Notes under the pieces: generated by a model
Seen by the model: the letters and a program-made list of their open reading frames with translations, nothing else
Database searches by the model: none
What the model was told of the DNA's origin: nothing
NCBI GenBank assembly: GCA_030695565.1
Contig: JAUYRZ010000027.1
Location: 1 to 64,000, forward strand
From: Archangium sp.
GTDB lineage: Bacteria > Myxococcota > Myxococcia > Myxococcales > Myxococcaceae
Reading direction: 5' to 3'
DNA: 64,000 nt
Program-made: the position numbers and the translations under genes
Shown here: in pieces, positions 41,503-49,864 of the stretch
Numbering within the stretch: position 1 is the stretch's first letter
Layout of the letters: each line of letters begins with the position of its first letter

Positions 41503-42910
41503 CGTTGGAAGTGCCTCGTCGAACGTCACAGAAGTGAACTTCAGCGAAGTCGAGAGCGAGCCCTTCACGGCGCCTCCGACCCGCTCTCCTGCACGCACCG
41601 AGAGCCAGGTCGAGCCGTGGTTGGGTCAGCGGCCGCTCACCTTCAAAGAACCTGAGTTCTTCCAGGGGGAAACCAGTTCGGCTCCGGATCTCGCGATGCA
41701 AGCCGCACAAGAGAACGCTCAGCGGCAACGCGATCTGAAAAGCCTATCCATTCTCGACGCGCCGATTGCGGCGTTGGGTGCCAGGTTTGACGCCGACACC
41801 TCCTTCAAGCTCAAGCACGTGACTGCGTTCGGGAAGGCCATTCAGACGCCTGAGTTCATGAGCGCTGCGGCGAACCTCTCGCCCGCCGACGTCCGCGCCC
41901 GAGTGGAGGAGCAGGTGAAGAAGGCCTGGCCTCAGGCCTCGCCGGAGCAGACCCAGCAACTGAAGCAGTACCTGATGAAGGAAATGGGCGAGTTTCTCCG
42001 GCAAGGGGCGGCCCCTCGGATGCAGGAGACCGCGACCCGGATGCTCGACGCTGCGGCGAAGTCTTTCGACAAGACGGCCGCCAACCCCTCGGAGACAGCA
42101 GCACTCGCGACGCGGCTCACGGAGATGGCTCACCCGCTCGCGCCCGTCGAAGACCAGTGTGAGGTTCGCGATCTTCGAATCGCGCTCGGCCTGAAGGCTG
42201 ATCAGGCCAACGTGTCACCCGAGGATCTGACGAAGGGACTCAAAGCGCGCGCAGCGCTCCTCCATCAGGAAGCGAAGAAGATGAAGTATCACGATCAGCT
42301 CACCGTCTTCCGCGCACTGGCGGAGCAGGACGTGAGCGGGATCTACAAGCAGGCCAAGGGCATTCGCGAGGGCAGCATGCTCGCCGCGCAGATTGATGGC
42401 GTCCGGCAGAAGGGCGAAAACGAGAACACCGCCATCGCAGGCGCTCAGTTGAGCGCGATGGTCGCGGCGGCGGTCGTCACGGGTGGCCTGGGCGTCGGCG
42501 GCTTCGCTGGAGTGGCAATCAGCAGCGGCGCGGCTCTTTCGCTCAAAGCGCCCTCGGTGCTCTCGGCCTGGCAGTCAGTCGATACCGCCAAGGCAGGTGA
42601 GTCTGCCGGCACGATGAAGGCTGGTGCAGAGGACGAGGCCACCCAGAAAGCCGTCATCGTGACCGCGGAGGCGGTGGCCGGTGCGGGCGCCTCCGCCTTG
42701 GGATCTCACCAGCTTCATGGCGCCACGGAAGCGCTTGCCAAGCCGATGGTTGAGCACATGGCGGACAACCTCGTGAGGGGCGCAGCCCATGGTGTCATCG
42801 AGGGCTTGGTGGAGAAGGGCGGCGGGAAGATCGCACACTGGGCGGAGCACAAACTGGCGAACGAAGGTCAGGCCACCGGCAAGAACGCCCTCGAGCGTGC
42901 CAAGCCGTGA
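41489..42910 (+). CDS. Unrecognised protein with hydrophobic Gly/Ala segment
   Basis: 473 residues from ATG 41489. No signal peptide. Residues 1-70 are Ser/Thr/Pro-rich and disordered. Residues about 75-310 are charged helices (SPADVRARVEEQVKKAWPQA; QQLKQYLMKEMGEFLRQG). Residues 316-352 are a long Gly/Ala hydrophobic stretch (AMVAAAVVTGGLGVGGFAGV), with a second Ala-rich stretch at about 386-405. The end is helical. The hydrophobic hairpin recalls pore-forming or secreted effector proteins, but no family is recognised. It is preceded by a sigma-54-type promoter and overlaps the kinase start by four bases. Confidence 0.75.
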   Translation: MSTRPVGSASSNVTEVNFSEVESEPFTAPPTRSPARTESQVEPWLGQRPLTFKEPEFFQGETSSAPDLAMQAAQENAQRQRDLKSLSILDAPIAALGARFDADTSFKLKHVTAFGKAIQTPEFMSAAANLSPADVRARVEEQVKKAWPQASPEQTQQLKQYLMKEMGEFLRQGAAPRMQETATRMLDAAAKSFDKTAANPSETAALATRLTEMAHPLAPVEDQCEVRDLRIALGLKADQANVSPEDLTKGLKARAALLHQEAKKMKYHDQLTVFRALAEQDVSGIYKQAKGIREGSMLAAQIDGVRQKGENENTAIAGAQLSAMVAAAVVTGGLGVGGFAGVAISSGAALSLKAPSVLSAWQSVDTAKAGESAGTMKAGAEDEATQKAVIVTAEAVAGAGASALGSHQLHGATEALAKPMVEHMADNLVRGAAHGVIEGLVEKGGGKIAHWAEHKLANEGQATGKNALERAKP

Positions 42911-44568
42911 GCAACTCCGCCTCCACTGGAAGCTCAGGGGAACCTCGCGCCAAAGTGGAGGCGTTGAACGTGGGTTGGTACAACCCGCACATGTCCGTGA
43001 CCAATCCCGAACTCGGCAGCGCGCCTCCTACAGTTCAGGTGGACGAGAGCGGGGCTGATCCGTTGATCGGCATCGATCTGGGCGGCTTCAAGGTGGTCAA
43101 GCTGCTCGCGGCTGGCGGCATGGGTCTGGTCTACGAGGCGATGCATCCGGCGATCGGGCGTCGCGCGGCGGTGAAGGTGCTCAAGCCGGAGGTCGCCGCC
43201 GATGCGGAGTGGACCAAACGGTTCCTCTCCGAAGCGCGTGCGTTGGGAGCCATCAAGCATCGAAACCTGATCGAGGTGCTCAACTTCGGGAAGACGCCCG
43301 ACGGGCGCGAATTCCTGATGATGGAGTTCCTCGATGGTGAGCCGCTCGACGCGTACATCCGCCGGTTGGGTCAGCTCGCTCCGGCCGTTGCGCTGGGCAT
43401 CGCTGATCAGATCCTCAACGGGCTCGCGGAGGCACACAAGAAGGGCGTGGTGCATCGCGATCTGAAGCCGGCGAACGTGTACCTGCTGCGTGAGCACAAC
43501 GGCGAGCTGCTGGTGAAGGTGCTCGACTTCGGTCTCGCGCGTCAGGAGCCGATCGCGATCCTCGATGCAGCCGTGAATCTTCCCAAGCGGGATGATGGGG
43601 CTTCGTTGCTCGCCGGTACGCCCGAGTACATCGCGCCCGAGCAGGCGCAGGGCATGAAGGTCGAAGGCTCGGCGGATCTGTATTCGCTCGGCGTGATGTT
43701 GTTCGAGATGGTCAGCGGACAGTTGCCGTTCGAGGCCGACACGGTGGTGGCGTTGCTCCAGAAGCACGTCTCGGAGCGCGCGCCCCGGCTTTCTTCGGTG
43801 ATGAACAACGTGCCCGAGGGGCTCGAGGAGTTCATCGAGGGTTTGCTCCTCAAGGAGCCGGAGCTGCGGCCGAAGTCGGCTGATGCGGCCCGCGTGACGG
43901 TGCAGCGGTTGCTCAAGCGTCTTTCCCAGGATTCCACCGCGGTGCGCATGAACCCCGCGATGGAGGAGTTCGACCCCAAGCGTGCGCCCACCGCGAAGAT
44001 CAATCGGGTCGAGGTGACCACGGACAAAGCTCTCCTCGCTGCGTTCCCTGAGAAGAAGAGCCGCGGTTGGATGGTGGGCGTGCTCGCGCTGCTGCTGTTG
44101 CTGGGGAGTGGATTGATCTGGAAGCTGAGCGGCAGGGAGGAAGTACCGGTGGTGAAGGAGGCGCCGGTGGCCGTCGCGCCGCCGACCCCCGAGCCCGTGA
44201 AGGTGGAGCCTGCGGTGGCGATCACGCCGGTCGCGCCGAACCCCGTGCCTGAACAAGACACGGTGGAAGCACTCCCGAAGATCGCCAAGGCGGAGGCCGT
44301 GAAGCCCACGCCGACGCTCAAGCTCGCGCCTTCGAAGAAGGTGACCATCGAGCGCGCGTCGTGCGATCCGACCGAAGACTGGCGCAAGCGCATTCAGGGC
44401 AACGTCACGGAGCTGGGCAACCTGGTGATCAATGATCCCAAGCTGAATGCGACCTGGGATCGCGACGGGCGTGTGGTTTCGGGGCTTGCGGAGAACGCGA
44501 AAACGGTCGGCGAATGCGTCGCCACGCAAGCGGCATTCGACAAGCTCCGCGCCGCGCTTGGTCACTGA
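42907..44568 (+). CDS. Membrane Ser/Thr protein kinase
   Basis: 553 residues from GTG 42907 (GTGA overlap with the preceding stop); ATG 42991 is an alternative start closer to the kinase domain. Kinase motifs: GGMG (70-73), K90, VVHRDLKPANVYL (D185), DFG (207-209) and APE (243-245), all complete. A membrane segment (about 387-406) precedes a Pro/Val-rich periplasmic linker (PTPEPVKVEP) and a small domain with two cysteines. Probably couples an envelope signal to cytoplasmic phosphorylation. Its partners are likely the flanking unknown proteins. Confidence 0.93.
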   Translation: MSNSASTGSSGEPRAKVEALNVGWYNPHMSVTNPELGSAPPTVQVDESGADPLIGIDLGGFKVVKLLAAGGMGLVYEAMHPAIGRRAAVKVLKPEVAADAEWTKRFLSEARALGAIKHRNLIEVLNFGKTPDGREFLMMEFLDGEPLDAYIRRLGQLAPAVALGIADQILNGLAEAHKKGVVHRDLKPANVYLLREHNGELLVKVLDFGLARQEPIAILDAAVNLPKRDDGASLLAGTPEYIAPEQAQGMKVEGSADLYSLGVMLFEMVSGQLPFEADTVVALLQKHVSERAPRLSSVMNNVPEGLEEFIEGLLLKEPELRPKSADAARVTVQRLLKRLSQDSTAVRMNPAMEEFDPKRAPTAKINRVEVTTDKALLAAFPEKKSRGWMVGVLALLLLLGSGLIWKLSGREEVPVVKEAPVAVAPPTPEPVKVEPAVAITPVAPNPVPEQDTVEALPKIAKAEAVKPTPTLKLAPSKKVTIERASCDPTEDWRKRIQGNVTELGNLVINDPKLNATWDRDGRVVSGLAENAKTVGECVATQAAFDKLRAALGH

Positions 44569-44619: not shown

Positions 44620-45546
44620 ATGTTCGCGTTCAAGAAATGGCTCTGGTGCGTGGTGGTCGGTGCTTCGGCGATGGCCTCTGCACAGGCCCCGAAGCCGTCG
44701 CTGATGCCCTTTCCCCTGGAGTTCAAGCGGACGCCGTCAGGGTTCTCCAAGGACGACAAGGAGTCGATGCAGCGCGAGTACACCCGGCTGGTGCGGCTCT
44801 CTGGTGCGATGGTGCCCGATTTCGCCCGGTACGATCTCGCGCTGAAGGAACTCAAGCGGCAGGACTGCGAGCGGGAAGACGAGTGCCTGGTGCAGCTCGC
44901 GAAGAAGGCCGAATCGCTCTACTCGCTGTACACGAGCGTCGATTACACGCTCGAGGGCGCGGTGGTGGTGACGGGGCGCGTGCTGCGTGATGACGGCAAG
45001 GTCGCCAGCCCGACCGAAACCGTGAAGCTCGCGAAGGGCCGCGATTCGTTCAAGGACATCGCGAAGAACGCGCTGGTGCAGTTGTTCACGCAGCTGAAGA
45101 TTCAGGAGCTGCCTGCGACGAGGCCGGTCGAGAAGGTTGAGCCCGTGAAGGATCCGGTGTTTGCGAAAGATCCTTTGAAGGATCCGCCGCCGCCTCCACC
45201 TCCGTTGTTGGTTGAAGACACCGGGGCAGGGCAGCGGTCGGCCGGCAAGGGCCTGGTGATCGCGGGTGGTGCAGTTGCGGTGGTCGGCGGCGTGCTCGCC
45301 GGAGTGGGCGGCGCCATCGGCTACGGGAAGAACCTGAATGGCCAGAACGTGCCGCCTGGAGAGATCGATTCAGTGATCACCGCACGCACTCTGACGACGG
45401 TGGGCTTCGTCGGGGTTGGCGTGGGCGCGTTGACGGTGGTGGTTGGGGCGATTGTCTGGGGCACTGCGGCGCCGGCGCCTCTCACGAACATCTCGGTTGT
45501 TCCCTTGAGTGGTGGCGGTGTCGTGCAGTTTGGAGGTCAATTCTGA
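44620..45546 (+). CDS. Exported membrane protein with Pro tract, unrecognised
   Basis: 308 residues from ATG 44620 (the upstream ATG 44578 is less suitable because the signal peptide would be internal). Signal peptide MFAFKKWLWCVVVGASAMASA. A periplasmic domain of about 170 residues has a Cys pair (CEREDEC) and the strand block TLEGAVVVTGRVLRDDGKV. A run of seven prolines leads into two C-terminal membrane segments (KGLVIAGGAVAVVGGVLAGV; VGFVGVGVGALTVVVGAIVW). No family recognised. Gene order suggests it works with the kinase upstream and the lipoprotein downstream (TGATG junction). Confidence 0.8.
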   Translation: MFAFKKWLWCVVVGASAMASAQAPKPSLMPFPLEFKRTPSGFSKDDKESMQREYTRLVRLSGAMVPDFARYDLALKELKRQDCEREDECLVQLAKKAESLYSLYTSVDYTLEGAVVVTGRVLRDDGKVASPTETVKLAKGRDSFKDIAKNALVQLFTQLKIQELPATRPVEKVEPVKDPVFAKDPLKDPPPPPPPLLVEDTGAGQRSAGKGLVIAGGAVAVVGGVLAGVGGAIGYGKNLNGQNVPPGEIDSVITARTLTTVGFVGVGVGALTVVVGAIVWGTAAPAPLTNISVVPLSGGGVVQFGGQF

Positions 45547-47687
45547 TGCGTGCACTTCTGCTGGTGATTGGTTGTGTTGCCTTTGTTGGTTGCACGTTTG
45601 GCGCGAACACCTGTGATGACATGGGCGGCTGCGAAGCCGGAGCGGTCTGCCAAGCGGGCTTCTGCGTGGCGCCTGCAACCGGCGCAGGCACGGGCGGCGG
45701 ATAGACTGGAGGGGGTGGAGGTGGCGGTGGGGCACTGGGCGGGGGTGGGGGTGGGGGTGGGGGTACAGCCAACCTGTGTGATGGAGTGGTGTGCCCAGCT
45801 GGATACTCCTGTGAAAAATCAACTGGCGCCTGTCTTCTTCGCGTTACGGGTTTGGTGATTGTTTCACCCAACTCGGGGCGTACGAATGACGCAGGAGTGC
45901 TGCTGCTCGCGAGATTGACCGCGGATGCATCCGTGACGCTCCCTCCCAGCATCAGGTACGAACTAAATGATGGGGGCAGCCAGACCCTGGACTTGGCGGG
46001 GGATGATTACGCCCAACTCCTCACCCTGGCGGATGGACGGCACACACTCCGCGTGATCGCCGAATTCACCGATGCAGGATTTTCGGCTTCGGTAGATGTG
46101 TCAGTTGATACGGATGGACCGACAGTCATGGCAACGCTGCCGACGTCCGTGCAGCAACGCGATGAGGTCTTCCCTCTTAACCTGACGACATCTGAACCAA
46201 TCGAATTGAGCTCTGTCGAAGTGCGGCTTGCTGGGGTACGACTGGACGCGGCAACCGGCGCATGCGTGGCGAATGCCGGATGCTGGGTGGTGGACATGTC
46301 GGTGCCCGCATTGGATGCGATGACTGGATCCTTTGCGGTCTCGGCGACGGCAACGGATCTCGCGGGCAATACGAAGGTGACGGCACTGGGCTCAGTGGGC
46401 GTAACGCGAAAGCGCTGGGAATCGGAAATTACGACTCAGGAATTGCGCGCGGCTCCTGCGATCGGAAGGGATGGAACGATTTACATCGGAGCACGGGGAA
46501 GCGCATTGACTGGCACGCTGCTTGCGTTGAATCCAACAGACGGCGGAGTGAAAAACTCCGCGGCGCTGCTGGGCGCGATCCAGAGCGTAGCCACAGCCGT
46601 TAGCAACGACGCCGGCCTCGTCTATTTTACGTCAAATGATGCAACCGGAGGACAAGTGGGTTCGCGTTCAGCCGAAGATCTGTCGCTTCCTTCTGGAATC
46701 CGACCGGCTACCAGCGGAAACGGGGTGACGCCAACCTATTCTGCTCTTGGGTTGGTCGAGAAATCTGCGACTGAAGTTGGGGCCATTGCCGTGTTTAACA
46801 CAGAAGTCTCAGCGGGTCGCGTGGTGATCTACGGGTCGAGTTCGGCTCCTGCTGGGGATAACGCAGTAGGCAGTGCATTTGACTTCGCTCCTGTGCCCAC
46901 GCCAGCATCGGTAGCGAACAATATCGTTGTGGACGGGTCGGCCGCCTATTTGATTACAACCTTGTCCGGAACTGGTCTGAACTGGCAACCGATTAGCAAT
47001 GTGACAGGCAACCCGACGGCCGGCGTTGCGGTGCCATTGGAGACGGGCGGCCGCGATTGCTGCCTGTCCGGCCAAGCTTTCTTGAGCGGTTCTTCGCTTG
47101 TGGGTGGCACCACAGTTGGCAGTCGACAACTCTACTTGGTGTCGGCCGCCTCTATGACCCGGGGTGACCTTGGTGTCGCGGCCGACTACGGCACGCCGGT
47201 TGTGTCTGCAATTGGTGATGCTTTCGTCGGTCGCGGCACCAATGAACTGGTCCGCTTCAACCCTTCAATGTTGGGTTCAACTGGCGTGGTCCTGAAGTCG
47301 GGCGCCGGCATCATCAGGACGTCGCCTGTGCTCGGAAGAGCACGAACCGGCCAGGCAGTCGGCTTGGGCTATGCGGTCAACAGCACTGGGACGCTCTTCG
47401 CTTTTGCTCAGGATGGTTCGGCTGGCAGTGCTTCAGACTGGGGTTCCGCTTTCGTCGGCGGCAGCACGGTCTACGCGCACCCGACTCTGGACTGCAATCG
47501 TCGCATTGGAGCCGCGACCGCGAGGACCGGGGTCCTTTACGTCGTGGGATCGACCAAAGTCAGTGCGATCGTTGTCGACTCCCCGCGGCTTTTGGACACC
47601 GTAGGGTCATGGCCGAAGTACCAACGGACAGCTGGTAACGCCGGCAACACGAGCGCCGCCTTCCCGTTCAATCCGGGTTGCCCGTAA
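45546..47687 (+). pseudogene. Lipoprotein gene split by an in-frame TAG
   Basis: ATG 45546 opens a frame of 52 codons: signal peptide MRALLLVIGCVAFVGC with a lipobox, then Cys-rich (CDDMGGCEAGAVCQAGFC). TAG at 45702-45704 follows. The same frame then resumes with a Gly-rich linker (45705-45767) and continues without a stop to 47687: CDGVVCPAGYSCEKSTGACL, an Ig-like block, then repeated strand motifs typical of a PQQ-type propeller. The linker and Cys motif before and after the stop belong together, as in the lipoprotein at 4899. This is either a nonsense mutation, suppressed or recoded translation, or a sequence error. The downstream part alone can start at ATG 45786 but would lack a signal peptide. 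Base composition looks less GC-rich than in most neighbours. Confidence 0.7.
45741..45763 (+). other. G-quadruplex-forming tract
   Basis: Four runs of five G separated by single T (G5T repeated four times), a near-ideal intramolecular G4 on the coding strand. It lies in the Gly linker of the split lipoprotein gene, 36 bases after the TAG. Confidence 0.8.
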
Positions 47688-47821: not shown

Positions 47822-49864
47822 GTGGCCCAACGTCTGCTCGTCCTTGCTCTTTTCGTTTCCTGTTCCCCCATCCCCGTCACTCCGCTGTGCACGGCCGACT
47901 CCGAATGTGACGCGAGCGCCTTCTGCGACGACGGCTACTGCCGCACCGGCATTCCTGGAGTCGACGCCAAAGACAGATGTACCGAAGGCGAGACGCGGCC
48001 GTGTGGTCCTGACCCGGTCGGCGCTTGTCGTCCCGGAGTTCAGCGCTGTGTCATGGGTGTCTTCGAGACTGTCTGCCCCGACCAGGTCACCGGCATCAAC
48101 GAGACCTGCAATGGGATCGATGACGACTGCGACGGCACCATCGACAACGGCGCCCTGATCACCTTCTTCGTCGACCGCGATGGCGACGGCTTCGGCTCCA
48201 ACGCCTCTGGCGCTGAGACGCGGCAGAGCTGTGACCCCGTCGCCGGCTTCGTTGCCAATGACAGCGATTGCAACGACACCCTCGCTGCCGTGAGCCCTGC
48301 TGCGAACGAAGTCTGTGACGCCGCCGACACCGATGAAGACTGCGACGGGATGGTGAATGAGAGCTGCGGTTGCTCCAACGTCGGCATGACGCAGGCGTGC
48401 TGCGCGGGCCGGGGCGCCCAGACCTGCGAGGCACGTGATGGTGGTGCGACGCTGTCGATGTGCACGGTCGCCGCGTCTCCCGAGGTGTGCAACGGCATCG
48501 ACGACGACTGCGATGGCACCACCGATGAGCTCTACGCAACCACCGCACCCGACGGCGGGGTGCTGGTGTTGACCGATGGCGGCGTGATCGGACTCGACGG
48601 TCGCTGCTCCGTGGGCGTGGGCGCCTGCGCCCGCACGGCGGGGACGATCTGCAGTGGCGGCTCGCTCTCGTGCGCCGCGGTCGCGGGCTCGCCCGGCACG
48701 GAGATCTGCAACAACCTCGACGACGACTGCGACGGGCAGACCGATGAGGCCTCGACTGGCCTGTGCCCTGCGACGGGTCAAGCCTGCACCGGCGGCTCCT
48801 GCCAGTGCCCCGCCGGCCAGGCCGTGTGCGGCACGAGCTGCCAGCCTCTCGGAGGTGTGTGTACCCGCGGCACGGGCGCCTGCGTTCGTACCGGCTCGCT
48901 CGTCTGCACCAGTGGCAGCGCGACCTGCAGCGCGGTCGCTGGAACCCCGGGAACTGAGACCTGCAACAACGTCGATGACGACTGCGACGGACAGACCGAC
49001 GAAGCCGCCGCGTCCTTGTGCCCCGCCTCCGGTCAGACCTGCAGCATCGGCACCTGCTCGTGCCCTGGCGCGCAGGTCGTTTGCGGTTCGAGTTGCCAGA
49101 CGTTGGGCGGTTCGTGCTCAGCGGGCCTCGGTGCGTGCCTGCGCAACGGTGCGTTCGCCTGCATCAGCGGAGGCGCTGCCTGCAATGCCACCCCCGGCAC
49201 CCCGGGTACCGAGATCTGCGACGGCATCGATAATAACTGCGACGGGGCAGTCGACGAAGGGGTGAAGGTTTCCTGCTACCCCGATACGGACAACGACACC
49301 TACTCGAACGACACGACGGTTACTCAGCAGTGTCGCGACAATACCCGTGCGTCATTCGGGTTCTGTCCGACCGGATTCGTAGCCGCCTCGCTCGGAAAGG
49401 GGACGGACTGCAATTCGTCCGACCCGAACAAGTATGTCAACAGCTCGGTGCGGGTCGATGCCGACGGCGACACCTACTGCATCGGGGCCGCCTTCACGCA
49501 GTGTGGGAATGGTTCGGGGGCCCCTGGAACCCGGCTCACGACGAACTGCAATGCGACCGATGACTGCAAAGACTCCAATTCCTATGCGAATCAGGCCTGC
49601 TTCCTGCCCTCCGAATTCCAGAGTGTGGGACAGTTAAAGATCTGCGAGGTCGGGGTCCCCAAGACGGAAACCTTCGGGGTTCTGACGCACAGGTTCTGTC
49701 CGCCGGGCTTCAGCAGGTCGGGGGCTCCCCGGTCTGTGCGGCATCACGGCACCGCGGCTGGCACCTGCACCCCCAGCGGCGACCTGCTCCTCACGATGAC
49801 CTGCGACTTTTGGGCGATCGGCAACTTCGTCTGCAACGTCCAGGGAGACTGCGTGGCGAACTGA
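47822..49864 (+). CDS. MopE-like lipoprotein with five CNGIDDDCDG-type repeats
   Basis: 680 residues from GTG 47822, with GGAGG five bases upstream. Lipobox FVSC (C14). Five copies of the motif C-x-x-x-D-x-x-C-D-G lie at about 96-105 (CNGIDDDCDG), 223-232, 296-305, 381-390 and 466-475. This is the MopE-family putative metal-binding motif, found in copper-associated and surface proteins of myxobacteria and methanotrophs. Residues 262-475 are about 85-residue repeats (CSVGVGACARTAG / CTRGTGACVRTGS / CSAGLGACLRNGA). Asp-rich DRDGDGF and DADGDTY loops may bind calcium. Surface-attached; role unknown. It ends 21 bp before a strong terminator. Confidence 0.9.
   Translation: MAQRLLVLALFVSCSPIPVTPLCTADSECDASAFCDDGYCRTGIPGVDAKDRCTEGETRPCGPDPVGACRPGVQRCVMGVFETVCPDQVTGINETCNGIDDDCDGTIDNGALITFFVDRDGDGFGSNASGAETRQSCDPVAGFVANDSDCNDTLAAVSPAANEVCDAADTDEDCDGMVNESCGCSNVGMTQACCAGRGAQTCEARDGGATLSMCTVAASPEVCNGIDDDCDGTTDELYATTAPDGGVLVLTDGGVIGLDGRCSVGVGACARTAGTICSGGSLSCAAVAGSPGTEICNNLDDDCDGQTDEASTGLCPATGQACTGGSCQCPAGQAVCGTSCQPLGGVCTRGTGACVRTGSLVCTSGSATCSAVAGTPGTETCNNVDDDCDGQTDEAAASLCPASGQTCSIGTCSCPGAQVVCGSSCQTLGGSCSAGLGACLRNGAFACISGGAACNATPGTPGTEICDGIDNNCDGAVDEGVKVSCYPDTDNDTYSNDTTVTQQCRDNTRASFGFCPTGFVAASLGKGTDCNSSDPNKYVNSSVRVDADGDTYCIGAAFTQCGNGSGAPGTRLTTNCNATDDCKDSNSYANQACFLPSEFQSVGQLKICEVGVPKTETFGVLTHRFCPPGFSRSGAPRSVRHHGTAAGTCTPSGDLLLTMTCDFWAIGNFVCNVQGDCVAN

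Follow-up and report, generated by a model that had tools for sequence, protein, structure and literature searches.

Introduction

In E. coli reporters, stop codon readthrough correlated with a G-rich, T-free upstream context and was raised by a G after the stop; predicted structure had no effect, and TAG, decoded as Tyr, Gln or Lys, was less prone to readthrough than TGA (PMC11126739). With such bacterial readthrough (PMC11126739), as with ordinary nonsense alleles, the gene described here has in common a single premature in-frame TAG in an otherwise intact frame, the difference from the reporter study being that our gene is known here from sequence alone. It lies at positions 45546–47687 of the window, a 64,000-nucleotide stretch of an Archangium sp. 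assembly. For the encoded protein, the closest described structures are BamB/PQQ-type propellers such as E. coli BamB and Bacillus YxaL, with which it shares a predicted propeller fold over body residues ~201–625 (VIA-align Z ~24–26) and profile matches at the sequence level. Unlike BamB and YxaL, to which its identity is 14–19%, the window protein carries additional Ig-like and Cys-rich segments at its N-terminus together with a Gly linker, and its likeness to BamB is confined to the propeller, for which WD40 propellers score equally well. Nearer relatives are orthologues from Archangium sp. (L002/L094, L003/L096, L004/L095), which likewise combine a lipobox head, Gly-rich linker, Ig-like region and propeller with the upstream partner gene and the C-terminal motif WP[KR][YF]QRTAGNAGN, but which have a linker without a stop and a body GC3 of 0.79–0.84 versus 0.62 in the window.

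Results

Translation revealed a single frame that starts at ATG 45546 and runs through 52 codons, TAG 45702–45704 and a further 660 codons, the latter devoid of any other stop or frameshift, to TAA 47685–47687 (Table 1). The translated order is M...VGC-TFGANTC... within the 52 codons, followed by TAG, the 660-codon body frame and TAA, and the Gly-rich linker spans the TAG unbroken on both sides. As is typical of bacterial lipoproteins, inspection showed a signal peptide (MRALLLVIGCVAFVGC-T) with lipobox that is conserved in the orthologues. Retranslation agrees with the preliminary description, which had assigned the lipoprotein head and the 660-codon frame to one frame with a single TAG and had the Gly linker continue past it; the lipobox VGC and Cys-rich head that it named were likewise recognized. 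The base that creates the TAG is known from the assembly consensus of a genome in 134 contigs. Positions 45741–45764 in the Gly linker harbor the only run of four G-tracts in the window (at least 4 G, loops of at most 7 bases), a GGGGGT repeat whose coding strand might fold into a G-quadruplex.

Table 1. Features of the interrupted lipoprotein gene and its upstream partner (window coordinates).
Feature	Position	Strand	Remarks
Upstream partner gene, 322 aa	44578..45546	+	homologue adjoins the lipoprotein gene in relatives
Head, 52 codons	45546..45701	+	signal peptide; VGC lipobox with Cys16; Cys-rich segment; first part of Gly linker
In-frame TAG	45702..45704	+	linker of intact orthologues consists of sense codons only
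Remaining Gly-rich linker	45705..45764	+	GGGGGT-type tandem repeat and G-tract run from 45741
Body	45765..47687	+	short Cys-rich segment, Ig-like region, putative BamB/PQQ-type beta-propeller, conserved C-terminal WPKYQRTAGNAGN...NPGCP, TAA

A whole-genome search identified same-genus orthologues in G005 (60%), G003 (54%) and G002 (47%), with stop-free frames of 788, 800 and 847 codons, respectively. These three orthologues run through the region without a stop and align with the read-through window protein over its full length, initiator Met and final residue included. When the G005 protein was used as query against 96 family genomes, it aligned with 45546–47684 with '1 TAG' inside (E = 2.2e-219), and the window copy was the sole long family match containing a TAG; a stop at this place was seen in none of the orthologues. 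Searched on its own, the 52-codon head hits the corresponding part of two orthologues (58% and 53%, ~42 residues aligned), and linker length and composition differ among the orthologues. Because head, linker and body are fused in full-length homologues, head and body are, by sequence comparison, one gene that is interrupted once; the absence of head-to-body homology, which the preliminary description had named as grounds for giving up this view, is contradicted by homologues that run from head to body. Of these copies, only that of the window has the TAG. Head–linker–body homology, the C-terminus and the upstream neighbor all place the gene in the same-genus lipoprotein/propeller family. The named relatives, obtained by scanning a contig database with the family alignment, are Archangium sp. 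and other Myxococcales, all of them MAGs, and point to an Archangium-like myxobacterium as the source of the window; the same kind of scan with a single protein gave no match.

Two further family members had been reported with an internal TGA. For the G016 member we rejected an interruption, as an open 802-codon frame reaches the conserved C-terminus. In the G118 member (L108; G118:C23:10500-13500), the frame of the N-terminal part is not that of the C-terminal part; this member is probably frameshifted or misassembled, and its interruption is of a different kind from that of the window gene.

The body gave a weak Ig-like match. The window protein itself reached no Pfam propeller model; individual relatives hit PQQ_2/BamB and one further propeller model, and the family profile matches PQQ-type propellers in the PDB, both designed and natural ones. 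An AlphaFold2 model of moderate confidence (pLDDT 70) aligned with propellers, BamB and YxaL among them (Z ~24–26), with WD40 propellers scoring as high against it as BamB/PQQ-type ones. The full protein is predicted to be a surface lipoprotein that combines an Ig-like region with a BamB/PQQ-type propeller.

Relative-rate counts at the protein level, with G003 as the outgroup, amounted to 58 for the window body versus 75 for G005. The window body retains 175 of the 200 columns that are invariant in the other three orthologues (87.5%), the other orthologues giving 84.5, 85.4 and 67.8% in the same test. The gene thus shows neither several disabling changes nor the relaxed protein constraint of a decayed pseudogene and has not evolved faster, in keeping with the earlier impression that an old pseudogene would look different. 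In a neutral simulation, whose mutation parameters are our own assumptions, a further disabling change lay a median of 0.013–0.016 substitutions per site away for stops alone (95% limit 0.055–0.066) and 0.004 with indels included (95% limit 0.016). Given this short distance, an unconstrained gene would imply a young stop; more generally, the lack of decay after the stop means that it arose recently, does not exist in the real genome, or is tolerated. We did not rely on pairwise dN/dS, as synonymous sites were saturated (dS over 1).

The GC3 of 45546–47687 is 0.62, ~8 sd below the mean of 0.877 (sd 0.031) for 63 coding segments in the surrounding 80 kb, a reference set that was chosen by a codon model and is biased to typical genes; the next-lowest segments are 41531–42895 (0.78) and 47822–49861 (0.80). 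Intact family members in other genomes (L007, L008, L012, L014, L015, L016, L027) have values of 0.58–0.69, the intact paralogue in the same genome 0.70, and the three closest orthologues 0.79–0.84. As intact family members share the low GC3, it need not mean decay, and we rejected it as a sign thereof.

The genome contains 53 tRNA genes, for which ARAGORN, run on the loci, returned 44 anticodons, none of them stop-reading; the amber-suppressor tRNA that the preliminary description had suggested looking for was not among these genes. The RF1 gene prfA is present, scoring above the curated cut-off, the C-terminal domain of PylS was not found in the genome search, and TAG terminates several other predicted coding segments nearby. 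The dedicated tRNA-CTA expected of a recoded TAG, joined by PylS in the case of pyrrolysine, did not turn up in these searches. Among the options initially listed for the TAG, a nonsense mutation and a base error remain, whereas a suppressor or recoding is disfavored by the missing stop anticodon, the presence of prfA and the missing PylS.

Downstream of the TAG, there is no in-frame ATG, GTG or TTG before GTG 45786, which sits in the Cys-rich segment and is not accompanied by a signal peptide, so that re-initiation there would not yield a lipoprotein. As translation could not usefully restart in frame close to the stop, the allele, if real, would give only the 52-residue stub.

Discussion

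We regard a recent nonsense allele in a normal surface lipoprotein gene, located in a variable linker, as the somewhat favored explanation, and judge a consensus or assembly error to come next and leaky readthrough to be a distant third; we infer that the base is real, the stop recent and the full product lost. A nonsense change would have newly arisen in the variable linker of an intact lipoprotein gene, RF1 would terminate translation at codon 53, and the resulting 52-residue precursor would be converted to a mature lipidated Cys-rich stub of ~37 residues, the propeller not being made apart from trace readthrough. What speaks against a nonsense allele is that the stop adjoins an unusual G-rich repeat, that the named same-genus relatives are all MAGs and the gene's own genome is in 134 contigs, and that selection for a read-through product would also leave no decay.

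A serious contender, although we give it less credence, is that the TAG does not exist in the organism and stems from a sequencing, consensus or strain-mixing error beside the G-rich repeat, the gene being intact. This would be in line with the fully functional appearance of the remaining gene, with the GGGGGT repeat and G-runs adjoining the stop, and with the same-genus assemblies all being MAGs. The coding-potential scan of 80 kb can be read in both directions: no other gene was evidently cut by a stop, one isolated base thus being the whole anomaly, but the scan also shows no general excess of errors. Homopolymer sequencing errors are usually insertions or deletions, unlike the present case, where the frame is kept and one codon is affected.

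Leaky amber readthrough, in which the TAG is real and some ribosomes insert a residue, giving rise to the stub as well as the full-length lipoprotein with a Gly linker that tolerates any residue, appears unlikely to us. The undiminished constraint on the body would fit, as would the five bases before the stop (GCGGA), which are G-rich and T-free, and the G-tract array ~37 bases downstream of the TAG. However, no orthologue has a stop at that place, so the conservation expected of programmed readthrough is missing; the base following the stop is an A and not the readthrough-raising G, no suppressor tRNA was found, and TAG was less readthrough-prone than TGA in the reporter study (PMC11126739). 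RNA folding, predicted by a method that as run did not score G-quadruplexes, was no better than that of shuffled sequence (z -0.5), which leaves an RNA structure driving readthrough unsupported. Low-level leaky readthrough is possible, and nothing calls for it. Even less probable is the more specific scenario of a species-specific leaky amber codon that, helped by the G-rich context, sets the ratio of lipidated Cys-rich stub to full-length propeller lipoprotein.

Genome-level recoding of TAG by a suppressor tRNA, pyrrolysine or loss of RF1 is highly improbable, with 44 anticodons lacking a stop reader, PylS not found, prfA over the cut-off and several neighboring coding segments ending in TAG. 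An old pseudogene, or two genes, one for a small Cys-rich lipoprotein and the next for a separate protein, is hardly credible either: a GC3 of 0.62, so far below that of the neighbors, could come from long drift, but it is matched by intact family members and approached by the intact paralogue, the 660 codons hold no further stop or frameshift, head and body are fused in full-length homologues, and the body has no start and signal of its own.

The matter is mainly one of annotation. An automatic pipeline would be inclined to record the 52-aa stub and the signal-less body as two unrelated proteins, and the locus is better described as a single surface lipoprotein gene with an interruption; the case would gain biological importance only if readthrough were demonstrated.

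The stop of the upstream gene overlaps the lipoprotein ATG (TGATG 45544–45548), and the lipoprotein gene is therefore probably co-translated with it. This partner has no Pfam or NCBIfam match. The upstream neighbors of the same-genus orthologues match it with 40–68% identity, and so does the gene beside the paralogue in the same genome (L085). Two genes upstream of the lipoprotein gene, 42907–44568 is a protein kinase gene, homologues of which (L080, L083) share contigs with orthologues in G005 and G018. In the product of the next gene downstream, 47822–49864, putative metal-binding motifs of the MopE type recur (PF11617, 6 stretches).
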